From assembly GCA_003963365.1 (NCBI GenBank), contig RXJG01000002.1, positions 513,722 through 577,721 on the forward strand: a stretch of DNA of 64,000 nucleotides. Direction: 5' to 3'. Every line of letters starts with the position of its first letter. The stretch's first letter is position 1. Of the stretch, positions 59,606-63,087 are shown one piece after another. The notes under the pieces are model-generated. The model was given only the letters and a program-made list of their open reading frames with translations, ran no database searches and was not told the DNA's origin. Origin of the DNA: Sphingobacteriales bacterium (GTDB lineage Bacteria > Bacteroidota > Bacteroidia > Chitinophagales > Chitinophagaceae). The translations under genes were made by a program, and so were the position numbers.

Positions 59606-59968
59606 CTATCTTTTATAATAATTAGCTTCTGTATCTCTTAGTTCCTTATTCCGCTCCGATTTAAGATTTCTGATTATCTCTTTTCGCTCAGCACGGGACA
59701 AAGACTTGTCATGTCGTGCAGAACGGATTTTATCCTGGTAATCGTTTCTTATATCTTCCAGTTTCATATCCAGTTTGGAAGGCCGGTTATAATATTGGCT
59801 GGAAGGCTGATACCAATAAGAAGGATAATAACCGTAGCCATAATACGGAGCCCAGCCCGAAACTATATACGTCCGGGGATGATAATAATAACGACCCCTG
59901 GATCCTTTTTGTGCAGATACATTCAAAACCAATAAGCCCAGTAAGGCTATCAATGCTATCTTTTTCAT
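59606..59968 (-). CDS. Secreted Tyr-rich protein of unknown function
   Basis: 120 residues. The signal peptide (MKKIALIALLGLLVLNVSAQ) is followed by a Tyr/Gly/Pro-rich low-complexity part (WAPYYGYGYYPSYWYQP) and then a charged helical C-terminus (DYQDKIRSARHDKSLSRAERKEIIRNLKSERNKEL) that may form a coiled coil. Proteins of this plan occur widely in Bacteroidota and may sit at the cell surface. It has no known function and stands alone. Confidence 0.75.
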   Translation of the reverse strand: MKKIALIALLGLLVLNVSAQKGSRGRYYYHPRTYIVSGWAPYYGYGYYPSYWYQPSSQYYNRPSKLDMKLEDIRNDYQDKIRSARHDKSLSRAERKEIIRNLKSERNKELRDTEANYYKR

Positions 59969-60190: not shown

Positions 60191-60631
60191 ATGATCAGGT
60201 TACTCCTCTTGTTCCTAATGGCCATTAACATTTCTGGTAATGGCTGGCTTGTTAATATAGATGATGCAAAAGCTCAGGCAAAAAAAGAGCACAAGTACAT
60301 TCTTCTCAATTTCTCCGGTTCAGATTGGTGTGGTCCATGTGTCCGCATGCACAAAGAGATCTTCGATTCGGAAGTATTTAAAGTGTTTGCCAATGATAAA
60401 CTGGTATTGGTAAACGCAGATTTTCCCCGCTTAAAAAAGAATCAGCTTCCTAAAGAGCAGCAAAAGCTTAATGATGCCATGGCTGACAAATACAATGCTG
60501 ATGGCAAATTCCCTTACACCGCTTTGTTAAATGAAGATGGAAAGGTTATTAAAGATTGGGATGGTTATCCTAAAGAGGGTATGAATGAATTTTTGAATGA
60601 ATTAAAGCAGGCCGTGGATGGTAGCTATTGA
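60191..60631 (+). CDS. Thioredoxin-like periplasmic oxidoreductase
   Basis: 146 residues with a short signal peptide (LLLLFLMAINISGNG) and a thioredoxin fold carrying WCGPC in FSGSDWCGPCVRMHKEIF, plus the cis-Pro region GKFPYTALLNEDG. It probably reduces disulfides in the periplasm and belongs to the DUF255/thioredoxin-7-like subgroup. It overlaps the following apbE reading frame by 14 bases and starts a four-gene operon with apbE, DUF4266 and DUF3570 genes. Confidence 0.9.
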   Translation: MIRLLLLFLMAINISGNGWLVNIDDAKAQAKKEHKYILLNFSGSDWCGPCVRMHKEIFDSEVFKVFANDKLVLVNADFPRLKKNQLPKEQQKLNDAMADKYNADGKFPYTALLNEDGKVIKDWDGYPKEGMNEFLNELKQAVDGSY

Positions 60632-61568
60632 AAAGCATGCAAAAAATATGATACACAAGCAGGCGATGCGCCTGATGGGAAATCATTTTGAAATTACGGT
60701 GGTGGATGAAGATGAATCAGGGGCTAATTATTTAATTGGCCTGGCAGTAAAAGAAATTCAACGGATTGAAAAGTTGCTTACCACTTATAGTGATACCAGT
60801 GAAACAAGTTTGATCAACGCAGCAGCAGGCATTCACCCGGTAAAAGTGAGTGAAGAAACCTTTCGCTTAATTCAACGTTCTATCCGCATTTCAGATATTA
60901 CACAGGGAGCTTTTGATATTACTTATGGTTCGGTTGATAAAAGTCTCTGGAATTTTGATACTAACATGACGAGCCTGCCTGATGCCAGAACTGCCAGGCG
61001 AATGGTAAGACTGATCAATTACCATAACATCATCTTAAACGAAGAAGAGAAAACTGTTTTTCTTAAAGAGAAAGGAATGCGGATTGGTTTTGGTGGAATA
61101 GGAAAAGGATATGCTGCAGAAAGAGCCAGGCAAATTTTACTACAGCAAGGAGTGAAGAGTGGTATTGTTAATGCATCGGGTGATTTAACTGTTTGGGGTT
61201 ATCAACCGGATGGTAAGCCATGGACGATTGGCATTGTAAATCCAAATTTGAAGCATGAAGTTTTTTCTTATATCAATGTGACTAACATGGCTGTTGCTAC
61301 CTCTGGTAATTATGAAAAATTTGTAATGATCAAAGGTGAAAAATATTCTCACACTATTGATCCACGAACAGGTCTGCCGGTGAAAGGAATTAAAAGTGTA
61401 ACCATTATTACACCCAACGCTGAAATAGCGGATGCGATGGCAACGCCGGTTACCATTATGGGCATTGAAGCCGGGTTAGATATGATCAACCAGATCAATA
61501 ATATTGAAGCGATAGTAATTGATGACAATGATATTATCTACACGACCAAAAATTTACATTTTACTTAA
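60618..61568 (+). CDS. apbE: FAD:protein FMN transferase
   Basis: 316 residues of the ApbE type. RLMGNHFEITVV begins the fold, AFDITYGSVDKSLWNFD and IGFGGIGKGYAAERAR are conserved FAD-binding parts, and KYSHTIDPRTGLPVKGIKSVTII is the catalytic block with the H-x-I-D-P motif. ApbE attaches FMN to Thr/Ser in D-x-x-(S/T)-G-A-(S/T) of exported proteins. No signal peptide is visible; the first ATG overlaps the thioredoxin gene, and a later ATG (MIHKQ) 30 bases on is also possible. Its likely target is an operon partner. Confidence 0.93.
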   Translation: MVAIEKHAKNMIHKQAMRLMGNHFEITVVDEDESGANYLIGLAVKEIQRIEKLLTTYSDTSETSLINAAAGIHPVKVSEETFRLIQRSIRISDITQGAFDITYGSVDKSLWNFDTNMTSLPDARTARRMVRLINYHNIILNEEEKTVFLKEKGMRIGFGGIGKGYAAERARQILLQQGVKSGIVNASGDLTVWGYQPDGKPWTIGIVNPNLKHEVFSYINVTNMAVATSGNYEKFVMIKGEKYSHTIDPRTGLPVKGIKSVTIITPNAEIADAMATPVTIMGIEAGLDMINQINNIEAIVIDDNDIIYTTKNLHFT

Positions 61569-61578
61569 AACCACCAGT

Positions 61579-61803
61579 ATGATAAAACAGTTTTTTTCAT
61601 CCGCATTTTTATTAATGGCAGGAATATTTTCTTTTTCTTCCTGTGCTACTGTTAAAGAGTATCAAAAAAGTAAATTGAATGATGCAGATATGGCTTTGCA
61701 CAGCCGTAAATGCCAGAAAACAGAAATGAATTTTCATGGTTACCGTGAAGGTTCTGCCGGTGCCAATGGAGGTAAAACCGGGGGAGGCTGTGGCTGTAAT
61801 TAA
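61579..61803 (+). CDS. DUF4266 lipoprotein
   Basis: 74 residues. The lipoprotein signal peptide ends in SFSSCATV with a lipobox Cys. The mature part (ATVKEYQKSKLNDADMALHSRKCQKTEMNFHGYREGSAGANGGKTGGGCGCN) is the DUF4266 pattern, with a C-terminal Gly-rich CGC tail. It follows the ApbE gene by ten bases. The family is repeatedly found with thioredoxin, ApbE and DUF3570, and has no known biochemical role. Confidence 0.87.
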   Translation: MIKQFFSSAFLLMAGIFSFSSCATVKEYQKSKLNDADMALHSRKCQKTEMNFHGYREGSAGANGGKTGGGCGCN

Positions 61804-61833
61804 TATTTAATCAATTTATTTTTCTGAATTAAC

Positions 61834-63087
61834 ATGCGTAAAATTTGCTTAACCGTTATTGGATTATACATCAGTTTTCTCTCCGCCTTCTCACAGAAAA
61901 ACAGGCCCGATACAGTTTACACACCTAAGCCTTTAAAAGTAGATGAGGTGAATTTAATTTCCAGTTATTATACACAGGAAGGTAATCACTCTGCAGTAAC
62001 AGGTGGAATTGGTAATGAACATGTGATTGATCTCTCGACCGGGTTAGAAGTAAAGTTTGTTGGGTGGGATACACAACACAATAAACATACATTGAGTGCT
62101 GAATTGGGTTTTGATCATCATACTGCTGCTTCATCTGCTTATGTATCAAAGACCGGTGCTTCCAAAACAGGCGGTACCCGAATCTATCCATCTCTCAACT
62201 GGTCAGTAGAAAATTTAAAGGGAAATAGTTTTGGTATAGGAGTGTATTATTCTCATGAATATAATTACCAGTCTGTTGGACTGGAAGTAAATGGTTCAAA
62301 GAAATTAAGTTCCAATACTGAGATCAATGGAAAAGTTTCAGGATTTTTTGACAGGGTAAAAATGATCTATCCATCTGAATTAATTCCGGGAACAAATAAT
62401 AACACTACTGGCGGGGGCTATTCAACGTACACTACCGCCAGCGGAAGAACTGTTACCGTAAGAGATGGACAGGAGTATAGTGACGATATCCCATCCAGTG
62501 CCCGTAATACTTTTACTGCTTCTGCTTCATTGGCGCAGATAGTGAATAAAAGAATGCAGTTTAGTGTGATGACAGACCTGGTAGAACAAACAGGTTATTT
62601 GGGTTTGCCATTTCATCGTGTTTATTTTACAGATGGAACAGCGCATGTAGAAAATTTGCCCGATAACAGAACTAAACTTCCTCTTGGATTTCGTTTGAAT
62701 TATTTTATGGGTGACCATTTTGTATTCAGAGCTTATTACCGTTACTATATGGACAGTTGGGGAATAAGATCGCATACTGCAGATATTGAAATCCCGGTGA
62801 AATTTAATTCGTTCTTCTCGGTATCGCCTTTCTATCGTTATTATACACAAACAGCAGCAAAGTATTTTGGAGCTTATGCTACACATACATCAGCTGATAC
62901 TTATTATACCAGTAATTTTTCTTATTCTAAATTAAACAGCCAATTTTATGGAGTGGGAATACATCTTGCTCCACCAAAGGGAATTTTAAATCAGCATTTG
63001 AATACACTGGAAGTAAGGTATGGACATTATACACAATCAACAGATTTGTATTCTAATGTTATTTCATTTGCCTTTACATTCAAGTAA
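61834..63087 (+). CDS. DUF3570 outer-membrane beta-barrel protein
   Basis: 417 residues. A signal peptide (GLYISFLSAFSQ) leads into a DUF3570 barrel: many alternating-strand segments ending in aromatic residues, and a C-terminal strand YSNVISFAFTFK. Near residue 90, DHHTAASSAY and VSKTGASKTGG resemble the D-x-x-(S/T)-G-A-(S/T) flavinylation motif recognised by ApbE, but neither is a perfect match (Ala for Gly in one, Val for Asp in the other). With the operon context, modification by ApbE is plausible. Its transport or electron-transfer function is unknown. Confidence 0.87.
   Translation: MRKICLTVIGLYISFLSAFSQKNRPDTVYTPKPLKVDEVNLISSYYTQEGNHSAVTGGIGNEHVIDLSTGLEVKFVGWDTQHNKHTLSAELGFDHHTAASSAYVSKTGASKTGGTRIYPSLNWSVENLKGNSFGIGVYYSHEYNYQSVGLEVNGSKKLSSNTEINGKVSGFFDRVKMIYPSELIPGTNNNTTGGGYSTYTTASGRTVTVRDGQEYSDDIPSSARNTFTASASLAQIVNKRMQFSVMTDLVEQTGYLGLPFHRVYFTDGTAHVENLPDNRTKLPLGFRLNYFMGDHFVFRAYYRYYMDSWGIRSHTADIEIPVKFNSFFSVSPFYRYYTQTAAKYFGAYATHTSADTYYTSNFSYSKLNSQFYGVGIHLAPPKGILNQHLNTLEVRYGHYTQSTDLYSNVISFAFTFK

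Follow-up and report, generated by a model that had tools for sequence, protein, structure and literature searches.

A thioredoxin, ApbE, DUF4266, and DUF3570 operon in a Sphingobacteriales bacterium with predicted flavinylation sites on a predicted outer-membrane barrel

Four adjacent genes, separated by very short gaps or overlapping one another in the open reading frame (ORF) calls, occupy the + strand from position 60191 to position 63087 of the window, by which we mean the whole 64,000-nucleotide stretch of DNA that was analyzed. A sequence-only reading of this DNA had described four tightly spaced genes, and the ORFs together with the Pfam matches (Thioredoxin_7, 2.4e-12; ApbE, 2.9e-84; DUF4266, 1.8e-17; DUF3570 [PF12094], 2.1e-30) bear out its spacing, family names, and coordinates, as well as the Gly-rich CGC tail that it had noticed on the lipoprotein. 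The genes, with two predicted flavinylation sites inside the last of them, are as follows.

60191-60631, + strand: thioredoxin-like protein (Thioredoxin_7 / DsbH-like), 146 aa, with a hydrophobic N-terminal signal sequence and a WCGPC active site
60618-61568, + strand: ApbE, FAD:protein FMN transferase, 316 aa
61579-61803, + strand: DUF4266 small lipoprotein, 74 aa from its ATG, lipobox SSC (Cys22), ending in GGGCGCN
61834-63087, + strand: DUF3570, predicted outer-membrane barrel, 417 aa, with an N-terminal signal sequence
62113-62133, + strand: predicted flavinylation site 1, DHHTAAS, DUF3570 residues 94-100, predicted acceptor Ser100
62143-62163, + strand: predicted flavinylation site 2, VSKTGAS, DUF3570 residues 104-110, predicted second acceptor Ser110

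The order thioredoxin-ApbE-DUF4266-DUF3570 recurs in 91 of the 141 loci that we fetched, an approximate count, as some contigs entered the set twice. The ApbE gene overlaps the thioredoxin gene by 14 nt. A frameshift fusion of the two was considered, given this overlap and a relative (L092:3500-4930) in which a single ORF of 476 aa encodes both behind the thioredoxin's signal sequence, an arrangement that would place ApbE in the periplasm; it was rejected as a general arrangement, the two genes being separated by a gap in many relatives. Promoter and terminator scans of the operon returned values near background. Upstream of the operon, on the minus strand at 59606-59968 of the window, lies a gene for a Tyr/Pro-rich protein of 120 aa with a hydrophobic N-terminus and no Pfam match.

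This gene set has been described before, which the sequence-only reading had not recognized. Meheust et al. 2021 (PMC8238504) report clusters composed of ApbE, DUF3570, a PF13899 thioredoxin-like protein, and a DUF4266 protein with a C-terminal CXC, and count 227 DsbD clusters with DUF3570 alongside 316 clusters without an adjacent DsbD. According to the same study, the DUF3570 protein of C. luteolum is flavinylated by its own ApbE upon co-expression in Escherichia coli, and the serines of both of its [S/T]GA[S/T] motifs must be replaced to abolish flavinylation. The sequence-only reading had called both DUF families uncharacterized, a description that this account makes outdated for DUF3570, an ApbE substrate since 2021. 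We found no other paper naming DUF3570 or DUF4266 in the literature searched, nor any literature report of flavinylation for a DUF3570 protein from the Bacteroidia.

All of these components (ApbE, an adjacent DUF3570, the PF13899 thioredoxin-like protein, and DUF4266 with its CXC tail) are present in the window, and we conclude that its operon belongs to the published DsbD/DUF3570 flavinylation cluster and is not a new system. The window nevertheless departs from the cluster as published. Site 1 reads D-x-x-T-A-A-S, whereas the published motif is D-x-x-[S/T]-G-A-S; the single full-length DsbD of the window genome lies elsewhere (G000:C5), an adjacent DsbD not being required in the published clusters; and the window ApbE lacks a signal peptide, a point on which the sequence-only reading had not remarked and that we did not find discussed by Meheust et al. 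The C. luteolum pair ABB24424/ABB24423 resembles the window in having a DUF3570 with two acceptor motifs, one of which aligns with window site 1. One fetched locus, L104, is probably the C. luteolum locus itself, judging from its gene content. Its ApbE is likewise signal-less; unlike the window, in which the second site is in loop 2, it has its other site in loop 1, and its gene order is thioredoxin-DUF4266-DUF3570-ApbE-DsbD.

The flavinylation motifs of the barrel protein carry most of the argument. DHHTAAS departs from D-x-x-[S/T]-G-A-[S/T] by G to A and VSKTGAS by D to V, so that each is indeed one step off the motif, as had been read from the sequence; TGAS of site 2 is a strict [S/T]GA[S/T], and TAAS of site 1 occupies the corresponding alignment position as a variant of the lineage. 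Aligning DUF3570 relatives around this region had been proposed as a check, and the alignment reveals a conserved motif. Among 143 distinct proteins, drawn from the same family and phylum plus 80 named Bacteroidota loci, every one bears a motif in the site 1 loop, with G, S, or A as its middle residue. Because the site 1 motif is universal in this set and the gene order recurs in so many loci, we do not regard the motif as a product of chance. Ser100 of the window protein aligns with Ser122 of the L104 protein, the last residue of the strict motif DAVSGAS. Searches of the window genome for other known ApbE substrate families returned no FMN_bind and no DUF2271 protein, beside one DUF3570. The conserved motif position, the aligned C. 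luteolum site, and this search for other substrate families together support the earlier suggestion of the barrel as the probable flavin carrier, and what had been vague near motifs become specific predicted acceptors, Ser100 and Ser110, located where flavinylation motifs are conserved in the DUF3570 family.

At least two motifs lie in the same loop in 116 of the 143 proteins. Of the single-motif proteins, 9 of 27 carry a strict motif in a different long loop, versus 2 of the 116 others (Fisher p 4e-6, a value that exaggerates the strength of the contrast because the sequences are related and by eye represent about three or four lineages). The alignment thus suggests that DUF3570 proteins without site 2 often bear a replacement site on another predicted outer loop. 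In f36, a family of the same phylum that appears from its gene order and adjacent DsbD to be Chlorobiaceae, the second site of several proteins, the L104 protein among them, is in loop 1 rather than loop 2. At five loci (L074, L082, L117, L136, and L150) two DUF3570 genes lie near one ApbE, and at some of them predicted outer loop 4 bears additional stretches resembling the motif (TSAS, TGAS).

We propose, with a probability of roughly 0.7, that the DUF3570 barrel is flavinylated by ApbE and reduced through thiol partners. The operon would make an envelope electron carrier of the DsbD/DUF3570 flavinylation type, in which the signal-less ApbE would transfer FMN from FAD to Ser100, and probably also to Ser110; the simplest place for this transfer would be the cytosol, ahead of Sec export. 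The flavinylated protein would fold as a 16-strand outer-membrane barrel whose flavins lie on the predicted outer rim. Electrons in the periplasm would pass from DsbD to the thioredoxin-like protein, from there to the CGC tail of the membrane-tethered DUF4266 and on to the barrel flavins, which would hand them to an acceptor outside, possibly a metal. The timing of flavinylation and the orientation of the barrel are less certain than the core claim. Counting against the proposal, site 1 has Ala in place of Gly, a change that halved the flavinylation of another protein (PMC12052999), and site 2 lacks the Asp. In its most extended form, in which a cytosolic ApbE flavinylates the barrel precursor before export and two outward FMNs let electrons from the thioredoxin and the CGC lipoprotein cross the outer membrane without cytochromes, the proposal is a tentative one that we think will probably not hold in full. 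Outward-facing flavins, if real, would constitute a flavin-based electron route across the outer membrane in the Bacteroidota; we found no discussion of them in the literature on this system.

The AlphaFold model of DUF3570, built with 75 sequences, has a pLDDT of 88 and a pTM of 0.82, and 16 strands were counted from its secondary structure; short turns and both termini lie on one side of the barrel and long loops on the other. The best Foldseek matches in the PDB are OccAB3, OccD2, FadL, OmpG, and AlgE (best E 2.6e-09, TM about 0.3-0.4), and a sequence search against solved structures returned nothing meaningful, its streptavidin matches (E 0.14) being chance-like. By this model DUF3570 is an outer-membrane barrel, with no close relative among the solved ones, as the low TM-scores indicate. 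Predicted outer loop 2 opens with site 1 and also contains site 2, and all 74 strict motifs (74/74) are on the long-loop side. If the short-turn side with the termini is periplasmic, then all 74 would lie in outer loops.

A competing view, which we place only somewhat short of even odds, puts the flavin inside the barrel lumen or facing the periplasm, where it would serve periplasmic redox chemistry, such as the reduction of a metal or protein, instead of passing electrons outside. In its favor, porin-like barrels can have loops folded into their lumen, model confidence is low for the site loop (pLDDT 58, residues 101-110), and a periplasmic location is expected for both partners, the lipoprotein and the thioredoxin. 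Against this view, the termini and short turns lie opposite every strict motif, and the replacement sites are in other loops of the same motif-bearing side.

Where the FMN is attached is a separate question. The window ApbE, which matches a solved FMN transferase (7esa, 6.2e-47), begins with MVAIEKHAKNMIHKQAMRLMGN and has neither a hydrophobic N-terminus nor a signal peptide; a longer start that would supply one was rejected, because in-frame stop codons close the reading frame immediately upstream. Among the ApbE genes of related loci, 114 of 129 are signal-less, 14 have an export signal, and 1 (L092) is the gene fused behind a thioredoxin, by calls that come from a simple hydrophobicity rule with inspection rather than from a trained signal-peptide predictor. 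The export label needs four changes on the ApbE tree, a quick tree with long branches. Six genomes (G007, G071, G162, G108, G119, and G173) encode no ApbE besides the signal-less one of these loci and lack FMN_bind; in G225 the single ApbE is signal-less and adjoins a DUF3570 gene. Because the operon ApbE is signal-less in most loci and is the sole ApbE in these six genomes, FMN may, on these sequence comparisons, be attached while the barrel, which itself has a signal sequence, is still in the cytosol awaiting export. We found no discussion of pre-export flavinylation by a signal-less ApbE in the literature on this system. The cytosolic ApbEs covered in a review act on a soluble cytosolic substrate or are fused to their substrate (PMC12052999). 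Klebsiella offers a parallel in a cytosolic ApbE without a signal peptide that acts on a soluble fumarate reductase; its substrate stays in the cytosol, however, whereas that of the window is a predicted exported outer-membrane protein (PMC12052999).

FMN could alternatively be added in the periplasm, either by a second, exported ApbE or by the operon ApbE reaching the periplasm by some other route. Most characterized bacterial ApbEs act in that compartment (PMC12052999), the window genome encodes another ApbE that does have a signal peptide, and the related loci with an exported ApbE, together with the thioredoxin-ApbE fusion and its thioredoxin-type signal, are consistent with such a route. 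We nevertheless consider it unlikely: genomes that possess the system with a signal-less enzyme as their only ApbE argue against it, as does the persistence of the signal-less apbE beside its substrate gene. The second ApbE of the window genome (L115; G000:C1:443943-444776, minus strand) lies between sugar-isomerase-like and FGE-sulfatase-like genes and near a Gfo/Idh-like gene, all of them named by eye from their translations.

The departures of the two sites from the motif, TAAS rather than TGAS in site 1 and the missing Asp in site 2, would also be expected if the sites had decayed in the window lineage, with the barrel no longer flavinylated and ApbE serving another target. We judge such decay highly improbable. 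The 75-protein alignment shows no variation at Ala99 or Ser100, only S or T at residue 97, and Asp94 retained in 73 of the 75 proteins; position 5 of the motif (residue 98) is S in 65 proteins and A in 10. Across the wider set, most Bacteroidia have S at this position, f36 has G, and a subset to which the window protein belongs has A. Because the S/A/G variation is lineage-wide, it does not represent the decay of a single genome, and the absence of other known ApbE substrate families from the genome likewise speaks against a switch of target. By this comparison the TAAS of the window is one of the normal states of the DUF3570 family.

The DUF4266 lipoprotein, which the sequence-only reading had also entertained as a flavin carrier, does contain a mimic of the ApbE motif, E-G-S-A-G-A-N (residues 57-63, window 61747-61767), but we accord that role almost no probability, given that in this E-G-x-[SA]-G-A-N stretch the acceptor position is an Asn (Asn63) invariant in 50 close relatives and that the wider DUF4266 family has no invariant Ser/Thr there. 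In the lipoprotein C22, E57, G69, G70, C71, and C73 are invariant across 26 diverse relatives. Its AlphaFold model (pLDDT 61) is mostly disordered, with no fold beyond the signal helix, a prediction fitting a flexible arm that would present the CGC pair. The thioredoxin-like protein has as its nearest solved chain 2ju5, a 'Thioredoxin Disulfide Isomerase' (E 6.5e-16), and resembles DsbH, although it falls below the DsbH family cut-off. It is plausible that this protein reduces the CGC tail of DUF4266, and Meheust et al. propose something similar (PMC8238504).

We found no DsbD, metal, or cytochrome gene beside the window operon. Genes neighboring the operon's relatives include those for VIT1 metal transporters (22 loci), CusB (19), and RND efflux (12), as well as cytochrome b561 (13), haem-binding (13), and Rieske (7) genes, suggesting a connection with metal or respiratory redox. 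L057 has a Rieske gene upstream of its thioredoxin gene, and in L190 (5439-7490) DUF4266 and DUF3570 come immediately after a gene for a Rieske-like lipoprotein, which takes the place of the thioredoxin and ApbE of other loci.
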